Origin: Pseudomonadota bacterium
Lineage (GTDB): Bacteria; Pseudomonadota; Alphaproteobacteria; SP197
NCBI GenBank assembly: GCA_039028155.1
Contig: JBCCIS010000034.1
Span: forward strand, 1-56,197
DNA length: 56,197 nt
Direction: 5' to 3'
The position numbers and the translations under genes are program-made. Positions 7,181 through 20,816 of this stretch are shown here, piece after piece. The first letter of the stretch is position 1; every line of letters starts with the position of its first letter. The notes beneath the pieces were generated by a model, which was not told where the DNA came from, ran no database searches, and was given only the letters and a program-made list of their open reading frames with translations.

Positions 7181-8758
7181 CTAAAAATGCTCCGCGCTTG
7201 CGTGGGACCAATAGCGGTCGAACGGCACTGGCAGCGCGCCGCCCAACAGCGCGTCTTGGTCCAGCCACGAATAGACCTCGGCATAGGAGCGGGCGGTACC
7301 ATCATCACCACGCAGGAAGATGTGTTGCGGGGTCAAATTCTTCGGATCGTCTACGCCCATGGCACCTATCAGAGCCAAAAAACTCTCTATCGTTTTTTCG
7401 TGATATTTCGCGACCTGAAGGTGCTTTCTCTCGATGTCGATCGCCTTGTAGCGCTCAGGATCCTGTGTCGCGACGCCCGTCGGGCATCGGTTGGTATGGC
7501 AGCGCAGCGCCTGGATACAGCCGACGGTGAACATGAAGGGGCGCGCGACGTTGCAGATATCCGCTCCCAGCGCCATCTTGATCACCATGTCGAAACCGGA
7601 TGCGATTTTGCCGCTGGCACCGATGCGGACCTTGTCGCGCAAACCGGCGCCGACAAGACTGGCGTGAACGAACGCCAGTCCTTCGTTGACTGGCAAGCCG
7701 AGCGACCGCGAGAACTCCAGGGGCGCGGCCCCGGTGCCGCCTTCTGAACCGTCGACGACGATGAAGTCGGGTGTGATGCCGGTCTTCAGCATGCCCTTCA
7801 CGATGCCGAGGAACTCGCTGCGTTGCCCGATGCAAAGCTTGAAGCCGGCCGGCTTACCGCCGGAAAGCTCGCGCAGCTGGGCGACAAACTCCATCATCTC
7901 GCAGGGGTTCGAATAGGCCGTGTGGGCCGGCGGTGAAATGCAGTCTTGGCCCATCGGCACGCCGCGAATCCTTGAGATTTCCTCGGAGATCTTGGCCGCG
8001 GGCAGAACGCCGCCATGGGATGGCTTGGCACCCTGGCTGACCTTGATTTCGACCATCTTGACGTGGTCGTGGGCGGCCTTCTCGCGGAACTTCTCAGGGT
8101 CGAAATTGCCGTCGGCGGTGCGGCACCCGAAATAGCCGGTGCCAAGCTCCCAGACGATATCGCCGCCACCTGCGATATGGTGCGGCGTCAGACCGCCTTC
8201 GCCGGTGTCTTGATAAAACCCACCCAGTGCCGCGCCGCGGTTCATGGCGATGACCGCGTTGCGTGACAGCGCGCCATAACTCATCGCCGAGACGTTGAGA
8301 CGCGACGCGCTGTACGGCTGAGCGCAATCGGGACCGAAGACAACACGCGCCGCCTCCGGGGGCGGTTCCTTCGGCGCCATTGAGTGCATGGCAAACTCGG
8401 TCCCGGAGGTCAGGAGATCGTGCTGTGTGCCAAAGGGCTGAATGCCGTCGCCGCCATGGGAGCGCGCGCCGACAAGTTCTCGGGTCTCCCTTGGATAGGG
8501 CCGGCCAGACAGATTGGTGGCAACGAAGTACTGCTGGATTTCAGGCCGGATGAACTCCGCGAAGTATCGGATATGGCCGATCACCGGATAGTTGCGCAGC
8601 ACGTTGTGAACGCCGTGGGTCGCGTCGTAGACGCCGACCAGAAACAACGGGACCAGCACGAGCAAAGCCCAGAGCACGTTCGGCCACACGATCGCCAATA
8701 GCGCGACCGCGACGAACAGCACAATGGAAACGATGTAAAAGCCTTGTCTGACGGTCAC
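7181..8758 (-). CDS. FMN-binding glutamate synthase family protein, membrane-anchored
   Basis: 525 residues. The N-terminus has two hydrophobic helices (about residues 5-25 and 28-45), then the glutamate-synthase central FMN/TIM-barrel domain. Signatures are MSYGALSRNAV, TGEGGLTPHH, EIKVSQGAKPSHGG, DGSEGGTGAAP and GASGKIASG. The 3Fe-4S cysteines are in CIQALRCHTNRCPTG. The glutaminase and GXGXG domains of full GltB are absent. The start is GTG 8758 after GGGGGAG. Related stand-alone proteins are common in proteobacteria and their reaction is not settled. The class II amidotransferase gene follows 28 nt downstream, which is suggestive of a split enzyme. Confidence 0.9.
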   Translation of the reverse strand: MTVRQGFYIVSIVLFVAVALLAIVWPNVLWALLVLVPLFLVGVYDATHGVHNVLRNYPVIGHIRYFAEFIRPEIQQYFVATNLSGRPYPRETRELVGARSHGGDGIQPFGTQHDLLTSGTEFAMHSMAPKEPPPEAARVVFGPDCAQPYSASRLNVSAMSYGALSRNAVIAMNRGAALGGFYQDTGEGGLTPHHIAGGGDIVWELGTGYFGCRTADGNFDPEKFREKAAHDHVKMVEIKVSQGAKPSHGGVLPAAKISEEISRIRGVPMGQDCISPPAHTAYSNPCEMMEFVAQLRELSGGKPAGFKLCIGQRSEFLGIVKGMLKTGITPDFIVVDGSEGGTGAAPLEFSRSLGLPVNEGLAFVHASLVGAGLRDKVRIGASGKIASGFDMVIKMALGADICNVARPFMFTVGCIQALRCHTNRCPTGVATQDPERYKAIDIERKHLQVAKYHEKTIESFLALIGAMGVDDPKNLTPQHIFLRGDDGTARSYAEVYSWLDQDALLGGALPVPFDRYWSHASAEHF

Positions 8759-8851
8759 GTTCCGGTCAACTCCCCCATGTCGTCATTATCGCATCGCGCC
8801 CCACGAGCTTGGTCGTGCTGTTTCTTATGCTTGCGATAGGTCTCTCATCCC

Positions 8852-9916
8852 TCAATAGCGCAGAACACCCCGCTCGAGGACATCGGTCGCGTCGCCGGCA
8901 TAGCGGGTGTTCTCGCGGCTCTCTTGTTTCTTGATGCCCTGGCTTCGATAGATCTCAATCCTGGGATCGATCGGCCGCCGGTCGTGGGCGGTGAGCCAAA
9001 GGCGCAACAGCATGCGGCCGGTGTCGGGGCCCGGCCGGTCCTCGAACCCGGTGCGCGCGTGCAGAACGGTATAGTTGTTGGCGAAGCAGATCTGACCGGG
9101 CGGCATCATGAACTCAAGCTTCATGTCGTCGCGCTGCGCGGTCTCGTCGAAGAACTCCAGAGCTTCGCGCTCGAATGCGCCGATTTCCTCGCCGAGCTCT
9201 TCGTAGGCCATATAGATATAGCCAGCGATATAGCGGGTGCTGACGACGCCTTCGCACTGACACAGCACCGGTACCTCATGCGGCGTTACCGGATCTTCGC
9301 CGGGCCCTTGCTCGCCGAAGCGGTGATAGCGAAAACCGCGATAGAGTGGTTCCAACAGATCGGGCCGGGCCTTCAGGATCTCGTTGTGGACGGCAAGCGC
9401 GCTGGCGTATTGCGACAACCCGCCTTCGTCGGCCGGGCGTATCGACAGCATGCCAAGGATACCGCAGCCGTCGGTGTGCAATGTCAGCGGCATGCTGTTG
9501 CGGTAGGCGCGTTCTTTCGGATCCTTGCCGCCGATGTTGACGACATGGCCAAGACGGTCGCCCATGACCGACTGTGAGACCCCGGTGCCGAAATGGGTGC
9601 CGATACCCCAATAGATGATCTCTGTCTTGGCCAGTGGCCAGTCTTCGATAGGCAGCCGGTCAATCAGCACCAGGCCGCGCCCGTCGATGATCTCGCGATA
9701 GATGTCGGCGAGGTCGTCGGCGATCGCCGGTACCTCGAAATGCTCGCGTTCAACCTGATCGAGGGTCAGGCCGGCGCGGTCAATCGCCTGCCAGGCCGCC
9801 TCGAAAGCGTCGATATGGCGTTGGTCAAATGTGACCGTGATGTCATCCAGGCTCGTAAAATCACTGGCCTTCCAGGCCGCCGGATGATCGACCGGTTCGA
9901 GGTATGCCTGTCCCAC
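8852..9916 (-). CDS. TauD/TfdA family Fe(II)/2OG dioxygenase
   Basis: An open frame extends up to 10030, but GTG 9916 is preceded by GAGGGAGG with a 7-nt gap and removes a low-complexity leader, so I start there (354 aa). The facial triad is His147 and Asp149 in TLHTDGCG and His286 in TVLHARTGFED, with Arg301/305 for 2OG. The family is the broad TauD/gamma-butyrobetaine-hydroxylase type, which oxidises small acids and betaines. It lies 93 nt upstream of the FMN glutamate-synthase-like gene on the same strand, so co-transcription is possible. Substrate unknown. Confidence 0.9.
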   Translation of the reverse strand: MGQAYLEPVDHPAAWKASDFTSLDDITVTFDQRHIDAFEAAWQAIDRAGLTLDQVEREHFEVPAIADDLADIYREIIDGRGLVLIDRLPIEDWPLAKTEIIYWGIGTHFGTGVSQSVMGDRLGHVVNIGGKDPKERAYRNSMPLTLHTDGCGILGMLSIRPADEGGLSQYASALAVHNEILKARPDLLEPLYRGFRYHRFGEQGPGEDPVTPHEVPVLCQCEGVVSTRYIAGYIYMAYEELGEEIGAFEREALEFFDETAQRDDMKLEFMMPPGQICFANNYTVLHARTGFEDRPGPDTGRMLLRLWLTAHDRRPIDPRIEIYRSQGIKKQESRENTRYAGDATDVLERGVLRY

Positions 9917-11050: not shown

Positions 11051-11308
11051 ATGATTTCCCTTTTTACGAAGCATCCCGAATCGGTCGGCGAGACCTACTT
11101 TGAGCACATGGGCGTGGCCTCCGGCTTCGGTTTGAAGATGGTGGTCGCGGGATGCGCCTGCCTGTTGCATGGCATCTTTCCCTTCCTTTTCGTGAAGACC
11201 GGCAGCACGGCGATTGCCGACCTTCATCATCGTATGGTGACGCACCGCAGGCGCGACGACGCGCCGTCGGCGGAGCCGGCCGTTCGGATCAGCCGCCCGG
11301 CGTGGTAA
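11051..11308 (+). CDS. small membrane protein, DUF6356-like
   Basis: 85 residues: LFTKHPESVGETYFEHMGVASGFG, a hydrophobic helix at about residues 25-50, then PFLFVKTGSTAIADLHHRMV and a basic tail. The HPxSVGETYxEHM and PFLFxxTGSxxxxxLHxRM blocks match a conserved alphaproteobacterial family I recall as DUF6356, of unknown function. One membrane helix is predicted. The gene is isolated between the Lrp gene (divergent) and the hydantoinase operon. Confidence 0.75.
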   Translation: MISLFTKHPESVGETYFEHMGVASGFGLKMVVAGCACLLHGIFPFLFVKTGSTAIADLHHRMVTHRRRDDAPSAEPAVRISRPAW

Positions 11309-11414
11309 GCGGCAGCGACTTGGAGCAGCTCTCTCATTGGTAAGGTCGCTTTGCGGTCCGATCACTGTGGGTGCGTCTCTTCTACTAAAAGGATAGCGTG
11401 CGGAGTCATGTGAT

Positions 11415-11443
11415 GAGGTAGAGCCGTTAATCGGTTCCACCTC
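11415..11443. repeat. intergenic palindrome, copy A of the GTGGAACCG/CGGTTCCAC family
   Basis: GAGGTAGAGCCG, loop TTAAT, CGGTTCCACCTC forms a 12-bp stem with one G-T pair and one mismatch. The right arm CGGTTCCACCT is identical to copy B at 38961-38971 and shares CGGTTCCA with copy C at 44311. It lies in the 234-base gap before hyuA, about 100 nt upstream of the start. The rest of that gap shows no gene. Confidence 0.7.
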
Positions 11444-11542
11444 ACCACGATCGTTCGAGCGTCGCCCAGTTAAACCAGAAATTGATTGGCAGTGCGCGCG
11501 CGCGCTGGCAAGTTCTTGCCCGTTTCATCAGGCGAGGTTCTT

Positions 11543-13624
11543 ATGGCGCGCATGGCGGTCGATATCGGCGGCACGTTTACCGATGTTGCGATCGAAAAAA
11601 ATGACGGCGGTCTGATAACCGCCAAGGTGCCGACAACGCCATCGGCGCCCGAGGCCGGCGTGATGGATGGCGTGCTGCTGGCGCTGGCTGACGCCGGTCT
11701 GAAACCGGACGCCATCGACCATGTCATTCACGGCACGACGTTAGCCACCAACGCGCTGATTGAACGCAAGGGCGCGGTGACCGCGCTTGTCGTAACCAAA
11801 GGATTTCGCGATACCCTGGCGATCGCCTATGAGGGCCGGTACGATCAGTACGACGTTTTTCTTCAGAAGCCGGAGCCGGTCGTGCCGCGTTACCTGACCT
11901 TGCCGGTCGGCGAACGCCTCAACATTCACGGCGATGTTCTAGATCCACTCGACGAAGGCGCGCTGGATGGCGTGCTCCAGGCGATCGATGAACACCAGGT
12001 CGAAGCAGTCGCAATCGGCTTCCTCCATGCCTACGCCAATCCGGTGCACGAGCAACGTTTCGCCGATCTGCTGCGCGAGGCGAGGCCCGATGTTTACCTG
12101 ACGTTATCATCGGAAGTCTGCCCGGAGATGCGAGAGTATGAACGGTTGTCGACGGCAGCGTGCAACGCCTACGTCCAGCCGTTGATGGCTCGCTACCTCG
12201 GCGCCCTCAACGACGCCTTGACCGAGGCCGGTTTCGACGCGCCGCTTTTGCTGATGACGTCGGGCGGAGGTCTGTGCGCGCTGCAGACGGCGACGCGGTT
12301 TCCGATCCGGCTGGTCGAGTCCGGGCCCAGCGGCGGCGCTATCCTGTCGGCCACCGTGGCTGCGCAACGCGGTGATCGGGAGGTTTTGTCCTATGACATG
12401 GGCGGCACGACCGCGAAGATTTGCCTGATCGACGACTACACGCCCCAGACCGCGCGCCGTTTCGAGATCGCGCGCGCCGCGCGGTTTATCAAGGGCAGCG
12501 GCACGCCGGTGCGGATCCCTGTGATCGAGATGATCGAGATTGGCGCCGGCGGCGGTTCGATCGCTCATGTCGACGAACTGCAGCGCATTGCCGTCGGGCC
12601 GGAAAGCGCAGGGTCCGAACCGGGGCCCGCCTGCTACACTAGGGGCGGCACGCAGCCGACGGTGACCGATGGCGACCTGCTGCTGGGTCGCCTTGACGCC
12701 GATCGATTCGCCGACGGGCGCATGAAACTCGATACCGCGCTCGCTCAAGATGCGCTGGGGCGCGATGTCGGCGGGCCACTGGGACTTGATGCGTCGCTTG
12801 CAGCGCACGGTCTTTCCGAAGTCGTCGACGAAAGCATGGCGAACGCGGCGCGTGTGCACGCGGTCGAGCGCGGCAAGGAGTTGCGCCAGCGCACCTTGAT
12901 CGCGTTCGGTGGCGCCGGACCGCTTCATGCGGCCCGGCTGGCCGAAAAACTCGATCTCGCCCGCATTGTCGTGCCGGAAAGCCCGGGCGTCGGGTCGGCG
13001 GTCGGATTTCTAATGGCGCCGGTCGCGTATGAGGTCGTTCGCAGCCACTACATGACGCTCGACGGTTTCGATGCCGGCATGGTGACCGCGCTGTTTGACG
13101 ACCTTGCCGCGGAAGCCCACGACGTTGTTGGCCAAGCGGTCAAGGGTGTGCCGCTCGACGAGCGGCGCACGTGTTTCATGCGCTACCTTGGCCAGGGTCA
13201 CGAGATCGAGGTCGAACTGCCGACGAGACCGCTGACCATCGACGATCGTGACGCGATCCGCGCGGCCTATGACGAGACCTATACCCGCATGTATGGCCGC
13301 ACGGTGCCGGCGATGGATATCGAGGTATTGAGCTGGACCCTAACCTTGTCCGCCAAGGCTGAGACGCCGGAAGCGCCTGTCGACGAGATCGCCGAGCACG
13401 ACGCGGTCGCGGCGGGATCAAGACGGCTTTTCGATGGCCCCGCCGGCGACTTTGTTGAGGCGCCAGTCTTCGATCGCGCGACACTTCGACCGGGCGCGCG
13501 GTTCCGTGGTCCCTGCGTGGTGACCGAAGGCCAGACCTCGACCGTCGTGACATCATGCTTCGCGGGTCGTATCGACGGACACCGCCATATCGTGCTGGAA
13601 CAAATCCAGGAGGCCGCCGAATGA
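11543..13624 (+). CDS. hyuA: hydantoinase/oxoprolinase A subunit (HyuA)
   Basis: 693 residues from ATG 11543, which follows GGCGAGG; an in-frame start at 11486 has no ribosome site. The N-terminal DIGGTFTD phosphate-binding motif and the actin-like ATPase core (HGTTLATNALIERKG, YDMGGTTAKICLID, GGGSIAHVD, AFGGAGPLHA) define the HyuA/5-oxoprolinase/acetone-carboxylase-beta family. With HyuB it performs ATP-dependent opening of cyclic amides such as N-methylhydantoin or 5-oxoproline. hyuB overlaps its stop codon by ATGA, so the subunits are translationally coupled. The exact ring substrate is unknown. Confidence 0.95.
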   Translation: MARMAVDIGGTFTDVAIEKNDGGLITAKVPTTPSAPEAGVMDGVLLALADAGLKPDAIDHVIHGTTLATNALIERKGAVTALVVTKGFRDTLAIAYEGRYDQYDVFLQKPEPVVPRYLTLPVGERLNIHGDVLDPLDEGALDGVLQAIDEHQVEAVAIGFLHAYANPVHEQRFADLLREARPDVYLTLSSEVCPEMREYERLSTAACNAYVQPLMARYLGALNDALTEAGFDAPLLLMTSGGGLCALQTATRFPIRLVESGPSGGAILSATVAAQRGDREVLSYDMGGTTAKICLIDDYTPQTARRFEIARAARFIKGSGTPVRIPVIEMIEIGAGGGSIAHVDELQRIAVGPESAGSEPGPACYTRGGTQPTVTDGDLLLGRLDADRFADGRMKLDTALAQDALGRDVGGPLGLDASLAAHGLSEVVDESMANAARVHAVERGKELRQRTLIAFGGAGPLHAARLAEKLDLARIVVPESPGVGSAVGFLMAPVAYEVVRSHYMTLDGFDAGMVTALFDDLAAEAHDVVGQAVKGVPLDERRTCFMRYLGQGHEIEVELPTRPLTIDDRDAIRAAYDETYTRMYGRTVPAMDIEVLSWTLTLSAKAETPEAPVDEIAEHDAVAAGSRRLFDGPAGDFVEAPVFDRATLRPGARFRGPCVVTEGQTSTVVTSCFAGRIDGHRHIVLEQIQEAAE

Positions 13625-15252
13625 GCGACGCGCTTGACCGGATTAACCGGCAGATCATGTGGGACCGTCTGCAGGCGGTGGTCGAGGAGCAGGGCCAGAC
13701 CCTGACCCGCGCGGCGTTCAGTCCGATTGTCAGGGAATGCGGCGATATCTCGGCCGGCATCTTCGATCTTGGCGGGCTGATGCTGGCCCAGGCCGTGACC
13801 GGCACCCCCGGCCATGTCAACACCATGGCGGCCTCGGTCGGTCACTTCATCAAACACTTTCCGCCGGCGTCCATGCAGCCCGGCGATATCTACATGACCA
13901 ACGATCCTTGGATGGGATCGGGACACCTGAACGACTTCGTCCTTGTGCGTCCCTGCTTTCTTGACGGCGAACTGATTGGCTACAACTCCTGCACCTCGCA
14001 TCTGATTGATCTGGGCGGACGCGGCGTCGGACCTGAAGGCCGCGACGTGCACGAGGAGGGGCTCTACATTCCGCTGCTGAAACTGGTCGATCAGGGCGAA
14101 ATCAACGAGACGTTGATCGAGATCGTGCGCGCCAACAGCCGCATGCCGGTCCAGAATGAAGGCGATATCTATGCGCTGATCGCCTGTGCCGAGGTCGGTG
14201 AAGAACGCCTGATCGCCATGATGCGCGAGTTCGCCATCGACAGCCTGGACGACCTTGGCCGCCACATCCTGGAAACGTCGGAGCACGCGACGCGGGCGCG
14301 TATCTCGGAGTTGCCCGACGGCAACTGGGACCACGAGCTGAAGCTCGACGGGTACGATTTCGAGATCGCGCTGAAGGCACGGCTGACAATCGACGGTGAT
14401 ACGCTCTGCGTCGACTATACCGGCACATCACCGGCCTCGCGCTTCGGCATCAACGTGCCGATCACCTATGCCCAGGCCTATACGGTCTTTGGGTTGAAGT
14501 GCATCATCGCGCCGGACATTCCGAACAACGCCGGAGCGCTTGCACCATTCAGCGTCACGGCACCGGAAGGTTCGATCCTCAACCCGCTTAAACCGGCGCC
14601 GGTATCCCAGCGTCATGTTATCGGCCAACTCTTGCCCGATACTGTGTTCGGTTGCCTGGACCAGGCGATTCCTGGTCGTGTGCCGGCGGAAGGCACGGGC
14701 TGTCTTTGGAGCATGATCATGCACAGCACGATCGGCAGCCAATCCGATGGCAATGCGCCGGCCTTCATGATCGAGGCTGTGCACAACGGCGGCACCGGTG
14801 GGCGGCCATCGAGCGACGGTCTGTCGGCGACCGCCTATCCATCGGGCGTTATGGGAAGCCAGGTAGAGCTGACCGAAAGCACCGGTCCTTTGATCATACG
14901 TCGTCGTGAGTTGCGCCCGGACTCCGCCGGCGATGGCGAGTATCGCGGCGGTCTAGGCCAAATCCTGGAGGTCGAGCACAGTGCCGGCGCGCCCTTCATG
15001 CTGTCATCCGCGGTCGAGCGCGCCACCTATCCGCCACGTGGCCGCCATGGTGGCCGGGACGGTGCGGCGGGCGAGCTTTGGCTGGCGTCCGGCGCGGCGC
15101 TGCCGGCGAAGGGCGAGAAGGAAATTCCCGCCGGCGATCGTCTCATTATCAAGACCCCGGGTGGCGGCGGTTACGGTGATCCCGCCAAGCGCGACATGGC
15201 GTTGCGCGACGCCGACCGGCGCGACGGTCTGGTAACCGGCGACGCTGGCTAA
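13621..15252 (+). CDS. hyuB: hydantoinase B subunit (HyuB)
   Basis: 543 residues starting at the ATG inside ATGA, overlapping the hyuA stop. Family landmarks are TRAAFSPIVRECGDISAGIFD, the metal-site region TGTPGHVNTM, YMTNDPWMGSGHLND, and the C-terminal glycine-rich KTPGGGGYGDP. It is the second subunit of the ATP-dependent hydantoinase/oxoprolinase complex. It ends 40 nt before the convergent kinase-fold/TPR gene. Full length and intact. Confidence 0.95.
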   Translation: MSDALDRINRQIMWDRLQAVVEEQGQTLTRAAFSPIVRECGDISAGIFDLGGLMLAQAVTGTPGHVNTMAASVGHFIKHFPPASMQPGDIYMTNDPWMGSGHLNDFVLVRPCFLDGELIGYNSCTSHLIDLGGRGVGPEGRDVHEEGLYIPLLKLVDQGEINETLIEIVRANSRMPVQNEGDIYALIACAEVGEERLIAMMREFAIDSLDDLGRHILETSEHATRARISELPDGNWDHELKLDGYDFEIALKARLTIDGDTLCVDYTGTSPASRFGINVPITYAQAYTVFGLKCIIAPDIPNNAGALAPFSVTAPEGSILNPLKPAPVSQRHVIGQLLPDTVFGCLDQAIPGRVPAEGTGCLWSMIMHSTIGSQSDGNAPAFMIEAVHNGGTGGRPSSDGLSATAYPSGVMGSQVELTESTGPLIIRRRELRPDSAGDGEYRGGLGQILEVEHSAGAPFMLSSAVERATYPPRGRHGGRDGAAGELWLASGAALPAKGEKEIPAGDRLIIKTPGGGGYGDPAKRDMALRDADRRDGLVTGDAG

Positions 15253-15292: not shown

Positions 15293-17782
15293 CTAGTCTG
15301 TCAAACCAGCCGCTTCGATATCCGACAGAAGCTTGTCGCGATAGCGCGGCGCTAGCGTGTGCCACGAACTCCTGAGTTGAGCCAGCGTGAGCTGAGGTTT
15401 CAGTTCGCTAACGGTCGCGATTGCGGCACGGGCTTCGTCGAATTTCTCTTGCCGAACCAGAATGGCGCTCAAGATCAGATGGACAAAGGGCGCCAACGAG
15501 GCGGAGATCTCGGCCTCGCCGACTGTTTTCTCAGCTTCGCTGTCGTCATTGAGGAGATAAAGGATGAAACCCTTGACGAAGATCTTTACCTGCATCAGGG
15601 GATCAAGCGGACTAAGTCGGATCGCCTTGTTGATGGCCGGCAACGCTTCCTCCGCGTGTCCTGTCCAAAGCAACGTCCCGGCAAGATTCAAGCAGGCATT
15701 GCTGGAGCTTGGATTGAGCGCGGTCGCCATTTCCGCCTCTTCAATCGCCTGCTCCTGATTGCCTTGGAACGCGTAGGCACGGCTAAGCGCCATGCGCGCG
15801 ATGCTGCTGTTCCCGTCAAGCTCCACGGCCTTGACGGCGTGCTTGAAGGCAAACGCCAAATGACGCTCGAGCTCGTCGGGTTCGGCGAAATAGATCCTTC
15901 GCGTTTCCAGAAGCGCCAGGGCCGCATGCGCGCCGGCAAAGGTCGGCGCCAGCTTGACAACGTTCGATAGGTGCTGTCGCGCGATTTGGGAGTTGTCCTC
16001 CGTAATTCGGTGGAAATGCCACATGCCCCTTTGAAACATATCCCAAAGACCGACGGCGCCGCGTTTGCGCTCGGCACGCTCTCTCTCGCATGACTTCAGC
16101 TTCGCATCGATCTTGCCGACAATGGCTGCGACCATGTCGTCCTGGACCGAGGGCGACTCGTCCAGTTGACTGTAGTAGTGCTCGGTCCAGAGCTGTCTTC
16201 CGTCACGCGTATCGATCAATTCGACCGTCACTTTGATTTGGTCGCCGGACCTGCGAATGACACCGTCGACCACATAGTTGACGCCCAACTCCTTGCCGAC
16301 CGTCCTTGCGTCGATGGTCTGCCCCTTGTAGGCGAACGTCGATGCGCGCGCGACGACCATCAGCCAGTCGATGCGCACCAGCTCTTCGATGATCTGTTCG
16401 GCTATGCCGTCGGCGACATAGACCAGTTGCGGGTCGCCGCTGTGATTCTCAAAAGCGAGAACCGCAACCGACGGCTTTTCCGGCTTTGTCGGATGATCTA
16501 CCGACCATACGCCGGACGGCTCCGTGACTGGAGATGCGGCCAGGCTTGGTGTCGGCGAAGATGGCGCTTTCTCGTCGAGACTGAAGTCGGGTCCGTGTTT
16601 GGGCCAGACAACGTCGTTCAGAACGAGGTAGTCTTTGAGGATGGCGGCGGCGTAGAGCACCGCCAACCGCCTGTCACGTTCGGCGACTTGTCTGTTCGCC
16701 ATGGTCAAGCCGACGGCGACCTGGGCAAGCTGGAACTGGGACTCCATGTTGGACAAACGATGCGCGTGGTTTCGATCGACCCAATCGAAAACCTCCTGGC
16801 GCAGAGACCTGAGAATGTCGAGCAGACCGATATCCTCGCTGCGGGGACTGCTGCCTGTGCGCATGTGATCAAAGGGGCACAGCTGATCAAGAATCGCTTG
16901 CCAATGAAGGCTGTTGGCGTTCCGTCGCTTCGCCAATAGATGACTCAGTGCGAAGTAGCCGTGGTCGAAAAACAGGAACTGACTGTTCTCATAGTGCGAC
17001 AGGTCGATGAGATAATAGTGGTCCCGTGCATCACCGGTCTTGCTGACTAGGACGTTGTAGCCGCTTAGATGGCCGTGGACGTTGCCGCGTACGGCGCGGA
17101 GCCTCAAATGATCGACGGTCTTCGCGGCACCGACGGCGAAAGCCAGAGGATTGGGATACCATTGCCCTTCGAACGACATGCTGGGCTCATCGGCCGGCAC
17201 CCCACAGCCTTCCGCCATGAGGCTTTGCAGGTTGCCGACGTCGGGTTCGAGCCGGTCACCGAGCCAACCGCGCAGCAGGTCATGGGGCGACAGCAGACCC
17301 GGCGCCAGTTCAGCGGCCGCGTTCCAGTCTTCAAGCAGCGCGCGCGAAACTTGGCGCAAGACCCTCTTCTGCTGTTCGTGGCTGCAGTCCGACCAGGGCA
17401 AGGCGAAGTCCAGAGACCGCCCGGGAATCGACGACAGGATGGCGACGCTGTCGTCGGTGTGGGCCACGTTGATGATCTGCGGCAGGTGCGTTGCGGCATA
17501 GTCCGGTGCCGTCTGACTGGCCAGGCGAAAGCGTTCGGTCTCGCTCTCCAAATGTGCCACGGGGTCACCGACACGACCGAGCTTCAAGACAGCCTGGCCC
17601 GAAAACGCGGGGGTCGTCACATCGGCCAGAAACAGGGTCCACGTGGCGATGTCATTGCTCAACTGGCGTGTCAGGTAGATTTCGTCGCCGACCTGCCACT
17701 GGTCGCGAATCACCGTTTGAATCGCGGCGAAGGCTTCCGGCCAGGGCAATCCCTGCTGCGATTTTTCCCTGGTTTCTTGCAT
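15293..17782 (-). CDS. kinase-fold (degenerate) + FlgO/TolB-N-like + TPR multidomain protein
   Basis: 829 residues with no signal peptide or membrane helix. Residues about 30-285 look like an aminoglycoside-phosphotransferase/protein-kinase fold: Lys67 in AVLKLG, Glu near 79-83, a catalytic-loop-like HGHLSGYN (236-243) and YYLIDLS with Asp260. The usual catalytic Asp of HGD is His238. Residues about 437-540 (PSVAVLAFENHSGDPQ...WTEHYYSQLDE) are the FlgO/TolB-N-like module usually found between a winged helix or cyclase and TPRs in bacterial adenylate-cyclase-like regulators. About 590-800 are TPR repeats. No cyclase or DNA-binding domain is present. The kinase part may relate to the TCAD9-type kinase domains of conflict systems, but I cannot verify this. 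Function unknown; a signalling scaffold or ligand sensor is likely. Confidence 0.85.
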   Translation of the reverse strand: MQETREKSQQGLPWPEAFAAIQTVIRDQWQVGDEIYLTRQLSNDIATWTLFLADVTTPAFSGQAVLKLGRVGDPVAHLESETERFRLASQTAPDYAATHLPQIINVAHTDDSVAILSSIPGRSLDFALPWSDCSHEQQKRVLRQVSRALLEDWNAAAELAPGLLSPHDLLRGWLGDRLEPDVGNLQSLMAEGCGVPADEPSMSFEGQWYPNPLAFAVGAAKTVDHLRLRAVRGNVHGHLSGYNVLVSKTGDARDHYYLIDLSHYENSQFLFFDHGYFALSHLLAKRRNANSLHWQAILDQLCPFDHMRTGSSPRSEDIGLLDILRSLRQEVFDWVDRNHAHRLSNMESQFQLAQVAVGLTMANRQVAERDRRLAVLYAAAILKDYLVLNDVVWPKHGPDFSLDEKAPSSPTPSLAASPVTEPSGVWSVDHPTKPEKPSVAVLAFENHSGDPQLVYVADGIAEQIIEELVRIDWLMVVARASTFAYKGQTIDARTVGKELGVNYVVDGVIRRSGDQIKVTVELIDTRDGRQLWTEHYYSQLDESPSVQDDMVAAIVGKIDAKLKSCERERAERKRGAVGLWDMFQRGMWHFHRITEDNSQIARQHLSNVVKLAPTFAGAHAALALLETRRIYFAEPDELERHLAFAFKHAVKAVELDGNSSIARMALSRAYAFQGNQEQAIEEAEMATALNPSSSNACLNLAGTLLWTGHAEEALPAINKAIRLSPLDPLMQVKIFVKGFILYLLNDDSEAEKTVGEAEISASLAPFVHLILSAILVRQEKFDEARAAIATVSELKPQLTLAQLRSSWHTLAPRYRDKLLSDIEAAGLTD

Positions 17783-19883: not shown

Positions 19884-20009
19884 CCGCCATCACGCTCAAC
19901 GTCCGTCTTCGATGCGTGCGGTTGATGACGGTCTGCGCCTGGATTTGTTTGGCCTGACCCGTCATTGGGTCTCGTCGCCTTAGTTGTGCTGCGAGAGGAG
20001 ATAGTCGAC

Positions 20010-20816
20010 GTGTTTGTCAGCACCCTTGACGACCTTGAAAGACTAGGGCGCATCAAGTTCCCATCTGATGCTTCGTTTCGTTCGGCCCGGTTCCTGACTG
20101 CCGCTGACGGCATGGGGTTTTCCTATAACGAGAACCGGGTCAAGGGCGGCACCGACTTGAATGTCTGGCTCAAGCATCACTGGGAAGCCAACTACATCGT
20201 TTCCGGCCGAGGCGAGGTTACGGATTTAACGCGGGGCGAGGCGTGGCCGCTTGAGGCGGGTGTCCTCTATGTTGTCGGCCCCAATGACCGGCATCGACTT
20301 TACTTCACCGAAGACGAATGCCACGTCAGCATCTTCTGTCCGCCGCTGACCGGCAATGAGCGGTTCGACAGTGACGGATCCTATGAGGCCAGCGGTCCGA
20401 TAGAAAAGACCGACCGGCGCATGTTCGTCAAACGTGTCGACGAGATGCGCCAGGCCGAAGGGGAGATGGTCGTGGCTGATGGCCTTGTGCGTATCCAACG
20501 CATGCTGACCAAGGCCGATGGCGTCGGCTTCGGTTTCTCCGATGTGCGCCTCGACGCCGGCGCCGAGCTCACGCACTGGTACAAGCACCATCGCCAAGCG
20601 AACCACATTCTCTCTGGTTCCGGCGATGTGACGGATATGACGACCGGGCAGACCTGGGTCCTTGGTCCCAACATGTCCTACAACGTAGGGCCTGAAGACC
20701 GGCATCATCTTCGCGTCGACACCGACATGCATCTCTTAAGCATCGTCTGTCCGCCGCTTGTCGGAGACGAACAGTACGATCAGGACGGCGGCCTGCCTGC
20801 GAGCGTGTCTGTCTGA
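20010..20816 (+). CDS. tandem ectoine-synthase-like (EctC) cupin protein
   Basis: 268 residues from GTG 20010, which follows GAGAGGAG and aligns with the EctC N-terminus. Two EctC-like domains are fused head to tail (about 1-128 and 136-262). Domain 1 has WLKHHWEANY, GVLYVVGPNDRH and FCPPLTGNERFDSDG. Domain 2 has WYKHHRQANH, NMSYNVGPEDRH and VCPPLVGDEQYDQDG. The three iron ligands of characterised EctC (Glu, Tyr, His with 28- and 8-residue steps) appear as Glu59/Tyr87/His95 in domain 1. In domain 2 the Glu is Gln196, with Tyr224 and His232 kept. EctC closes acetyl-diaminobutyrate to ectoine, but no ectA or ectB is near. Single EctC is about 130 aa, so this is a duplication-fusion. True substrate unknown. 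Confidence 0.85.
   Translation: MFVSTLDDLERLGRIKFPSDASFRSARFLTAADGMGFSYNENRVKGGTDLNVWLKHHWEANYIVSGRGEVTDLTRGEAWPLEAGVLYVVGPNDRHRLYFTEDECHVSIFCPPLTGNERFDSDGSYEASGPIEKTDRRMFVKRVDEMRQAEGEMVVADGLVRIQRMLTKADGVGFGFSDVRLDAGAELTHWYKHHRQANHILSGSGDVTDMTTGQTWVLGPNMSYNVGPEDRHHLRVDTDMHLLSIVCPPLVGDEQYDQDGGLPASVSV

Follow-up and report, generated by a model that had tools for sequence, protein, structure and literature searches.

The window, a 56,197-nucleotide stretch of an alphaproteobacterial genome (contig JBCCIS010000034.1), contains an open reading frame with an ATG start codon whose product joins a kinase-like N-terminal domain to a TolB_N/FlgO-like domain and TPRs (Table 1). This is a real gene, with an orthologue 82% identical to it in G001, the other genome of its genus, an overall dN/dS of 0.13 and conserved synteny. 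Its neighbours encode hydantoinase/caprolactamase-like subunits, an FAD oxidoreductase, LysR and GcvT-like proteins and other metabolic functions, and their order is largely kept in G001. A protein encoded at 19965-20816 (+) has two ectoine-synthase-like (cupin) stretches in tandem (NF009806, 1.1e-60), and no other ectoine genes were found among the neighbours scanned.

Table 1. Features of the kinase-like fusion gene (positions in the window).
Feature	Position	Strand	Evidence
Whole ORF, TCAD9/APH-type predicted pseudokinase + TolB_N/FlgO-like domain + TPRs	15293..17782	(-)	829 aa; 82% identity to the G001 orthologue
Kinase-like (TCAD9-related) N-terminal domain, residues 13-398	16589..17746	(-)	Family alignment, TCAD9 matches of homologues, fold of homologue
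Glycine-rich loop, degenerate; residues 43-50 read NDIATWTL (GKSGALV in relatives)	17633..17656	(-)	Column comparison
Lys67, beta-3 lysine kept	17582..17584	(-)	Invariant in all members
Catalytic loop, residues 236-243, HGHLSGYN; His238 in place of the HGD Asp	17054..17077	(-)	Alignment
Asp260, DFG-equivalent Asp kept	17003..17005	(-)	Invariant
Fast-evolving linker, residues 399-432, without transmembrane segment	16487..16588	(-)	dN/dS 0.45 (residues 400-432); hydropathy
TolB_N/FlgO-like domain, residues 433-560	16103..16486	(-)	TIGR02800 1.8e-5; other module copies in genome
TPR region, about residues 597-829	15296..15994	(-)	Pfam TPR_2, TPR_14, TPR_19

The C-terminal half follows the TolB_N/FlgO-then-TPR layout, as the sequence-only reading had described it. 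The TPRs are significant in a Pfam scan (TPR_2, 1.4e-10), whereas TolB_N reaches 0.017, below the Pfam cut-off. The latter domain is nevertheless clear from an NCBIfam scan, in which the TolB model TIGR02800 matches residues 435-558, and from 13 further proteins of the same genome that carry the TolB_N/FlgO-TPR module (E 6e-13 to 6e-47). NF009037, a HilA/EilA-type C-terminal region, also matches the window protein at 1.2e-5.

The same reading had placed a kinase-like Lys67, an H236-to-N243 motif and Asp260 in the N-terminal half and had raised a possible link to TCAD9. All of these positions are correct, and in the alignment they correspond to the beta-3 Lys, the catalytic loop and the metal-binding Asp, respectively. 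In the Pfam scan, the window protein itself gave a RIO1 trace (residues 231-263, 0.12) and no match to TCAD9 (PF19974) up to E 10. Its relatives with an intact motif match TCAD9 at E 5.2e-10 to 3.7e-8, just below the gathering score (26-40 bits, best 39.5, for a gathering score of 40 bits), and the Ruegeria relative also matches APH (5.8e-4). In the other direction, two proteins above the TCAD9 cut-off (G522 and G526) score 242 and 230 bits against the family profile, in matches that span the whole domain, and a more distant relative (G421) was found at 1.9e-37. Relatives were accepted only if the family profile matched over the whole domain. Phylum-wide matches to the TCAD9 model itself were mostly short ones at the HGD motif, covering model positions of about 297-328, and presumably come from other kinases; the model also matched in control genomes, and its counts are not taken as prevalence. 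The suspected kinship with TCAD9 is thus supported by the matches of the relatives and by the family profile, which suggest that the window protein is related to TCAD9 without being a member of it.

A kinase/APH fold, also proposed from the sequence, is predicted through the model of a homologous domain 43% identical to that of the window protein (L014; pLDDT 76, pTM 0.82). The best structural match of this model is the choline kinase LicA (Z 15.2, rmsd 3.7, 263 aligned), followed by N-acetylhexosamine 1-kinase, methylthioribose kinase, choline kinases and APHs. The model of the window domain itself, built with 7 close sequences, is of low confidence (pLDDT 53), and searching PDB sequences with this family's profile gave just two matches, both at chance level.

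Searches with the N-terminal domain found the order kinase, TolB_N/FlgO, TPR in at least 8 proteins from 6 alphaproteobacterial genomes, a lower bound because only close-relative patterns were used to search the largest collection. The carriers are the window's genome (G000) and G001, with two copies each, G093, a Geminicoccaceae MAG (L002), a Kiloniellaceae MAG (L003) and a Ruegeria plasmid (L050). The second copy in the window's genome is a full-length paralogue on contig C26, 41% identical over residues 5-812. In an even sample of the class, the fusion was found in 2 of 385 genomes, one of them the window's own. The fusion is therefore rare, in keeping with its earlier description as a new architecture, and the portions seen of the open-licence literature searched yielded no description of it. 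No relatives of the window protein were found in phage and viral collections. Separately, a TCAD9-like N-lobe fragment with two stop codons (L066, G418 C85:14046-14360) represents a decaying copy.

The absence of the catalytic Asp, noted from the sequence as His238 in the HGD motif, stands, and a second loss that had been overlooked accompanies it. The glycine-rich loop reads NDIATW in the window protein and HDVSAF in its orthologue, and GKSGA or GSSGA in relatives; the HGD position reads HGH in the window protein and HGR in the orthologue. Two hallmarks of active APH/choline kinase-type enzymes, the catalytic Asp and the nucleotide-binding loop, are thus gone, while the beta-3 Lys and the metal-binding Asn and Asp (Lys67, Asn243 and Asp260) are kept together with Glu81, all invariant in the family. 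Of the 38 columns that do not vary among eight other TCAD9-type domains, the window protein is changed at exactly five (44, 46, 47, 48 and 238), every one in the glycine-rich loop or at the HGD Asp; leave-one-out controls gave 2 or 3 changes each, scattered and mostly mild. An assembly error behind HGH was rejected because the genome of a second species has also lost this position, as well as the glycine-rich loop. Gene decay was likewise rejected, the reading frame being intact and dN/dS low: against the orthologue it is 0.106 for the N-terminal domain, indicating purifying selection, and 0.45 for the linker.

His238 is not conserved among homologues. HGD is kept in 6 of 6 relatives outside the window-orthologue pair, including the paralogue in the window's genome, and in the tree the pair groups with the HGD-bearing L002 and L003 proteins (support 97/98). 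Among the sequences found, the losses of loop and Asp are confined to the window's genus. With six relatives keeping HGD, the pair placed beside two of them in the tree and the domain under purifying selection, the N-terminal domain is best read as a derived, maintained pseudokinase. Contrary to the earlier supposition, a dead catalytic site is not part of the architecture; we conclude that the intact kinase fusion came first and that one copy in this genus later lost both the ATP loop and the catalytic Asp, yet was kept.

The expectation that FlgO-TPR modules usually sit behind a winged helix or a cyclase was borne out by the other 13 copies in this genome. Five of these carry Pfam Guanylate_cyc, two BTAD plus Trans_reg_C and one Trans_reg_C, and four more show a cyclase N-terminal motif by eye (L008, without a Pfam call, and L070-L072, which were not Pfam-scanned). 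The last, at L056:7672-9576 (+) on contig C26, is an apparent degenerate class III cyclase with a TM segment ahead of FlgO and TPRs, and is the divergent neighbour of the intact kinase paralogue. Its orthologues (L054 and L055) show 91% identity in G001 and 44% in G093, and the pairing with the paralogue is conserved in all three genomes; no cyclase-FlgO-TPR gene was found beside the window gene. Because the other modules of the genome follow cyclase-type or winged-helix domains, the kinase in this place points to a real module swap. In the Kiloniellaceae MAG (L003:1604-4591 (+)), a kinase domain 53% identical to that of the window protein is joined, through a TM segment, to another FlgO-TPR part, which resembles those of the cyclase and winged-helix proteins more closely than that of the window protein. 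As this kinase carries a FlgO-TPR part of another type, N- and C-terminal modules have been exchanged; L003 represents an independent exchange, which would put its FlgO-TPR part across the membrane.

Taken together, the window protein is probably a non-catalytic regulator that evolved out of a rare kinase-fusion family whose members in related bacteria are intact. We favour, with a probability of about 0.6, a soluble switch in which a derived TCAD9/aminoglycoside-phosphotransferase-type pseudokinase on a TolB_N/FlgO-TPR module would bind a ligand or partner and presumably transfers no phosphate. The N-terminal domain may bind a ligand or partner, possibly still a nucleotide or the substrate of the ancestral kinase, and its state would be passed to the TolB_N/FlgO-TPR part. 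The TPR array, judging from the repeat type, may recruit an effector or oligomerise, replacing a cyclase or DNA-binding output.

A doubtful alternative is that the window protein forms a pair with the HGD-intact C26 paralogue, regulating or mimicking it by competing for partners or by forming mixed FlgO-TPR oligomers. Each of the two genomes of the genus has both copies, which share their architecture and about 40% identity end to end, and only one copy is degenerate. However, the genes lie on different contigs, are about 60% diverged and are separated by a deep split in the tree. A comparably speculative extension would unite the intact TCAD9-type kinase, beside its degenerate cyclase-FlgO-TPR gene, and its dead paralogue, the window protein, in one signalling circuit that draws on a domain of conflict systems and uses the FlgO-TPR scaffold common to both.

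Less probable still is an active kinase in which another acidic residue, such as the invariant Asp273 in FFDHG, replaces the HGD Asp. Some pseudokinases retain weak activity, and the persistence of Lys67, Asn243 and Asp260 speaks against the non-catalytic reading; Glu81 and Asp273 are invariant with them. However, the glycine-rich loop has also gone, and since one species has His and the other Arg at the HGD position, chemistry is not what preserves it.

Relatives of TCAD9 do occur in settings that recall conflict systems. The G522 and G526 proteins carry an nSTAND_NTPase5 domain, which passes its cut-off in one of them, and a type I restriction system lies next to one of these genes (L053); the G421 relative (L062) is encoded with a MoxR-like AAA ATPase, recognised by eye, and an FGE-sulfatase protein. 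On the Streptomyces plasmid NZ_CP109010 (L051), two TCAD9-like proteins, one of them with AAA/STAND and TPRs, are encoded at 11098-14772 (-) and 7653-9869 (+), with a gene for an S-4TM pore-forming effector between them. According to Kaur et al. (2020; PMC7159879), whose main text does not name TCAD9, the catalytic residues are disrupted in the majority of S/T/Y kinase domains of VMAP systems, although these systems also include a few active kinases of the APH type. The association of TCAD9 with vWA-MoxR-VMAP or NTPase conflict genes is lacking at the window locus; the alphaproteobacterial fusions lie among mostly metabolic genes, no NTPase or nuclease was recognised among the neighbours of the window gene and its relatives, and PADLOC gave only a weak, generic TPR match. 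That the protein works, as other TCAD9 proteins do, within a conflict (anti-phage) system dependent on nucleotides is the least likely reading, and such a role, suggested earlier, is a lead from kinship rather than a result.

The pseudokinase reading gives these proteins a wider interest. They form a natural series that runs from the intact kinase fusions of relatives, by way of the intact paralogue beside which the window protein exists in its own genome, to a single lineage whose most conserved positions have changed in the ATP loop and at the catalytic Asp alone; the rest has stayed conserved, so that pseudokinase function becomes testable by comparison. A domain named for conflict systems is, moreover, used here on a widespread and poorly understood signalling module, TolB_N/FlgO-TPR.

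Among known systems, TCAD9 has a homologous N-terminal domain, its over-cut-off members matching the family profile end to end, but the window protein has no direct TCAD9 match and no STAND, MoxR or VMAP partner, and lacks the glycine-rich loop and HGD. The 'phosphotransferase' WP_223118376.1 of Ruegeria sp. SCSIO 43209 (plasmid NZ_CP065360) has the same domain order, aligned over residues 12-829 at 36% identity; unlike the window protein, it keeps GKSGALV and HGDLHG and is predicted to be active. The 13 class III cyclase- or winged-helix-TolB_N/FlgO-TPR proteins of the genome share the C-terminal module (21-35% identical) and differ in the N-terminal one, which is of the Guanylate_cyc, BTAD/Trans_reg_C or Trans_reg_C type, whereas that of the window protein has a predicted kinase fold. 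Aminoglycoside phosphotransferases, choline kinases and methylthioribose kinase resemble the fold of the homologue model (Z 12-15) at about 7-16% identity, but possess the catalytic Asp and glycine-rich loop that the window protein has lost.
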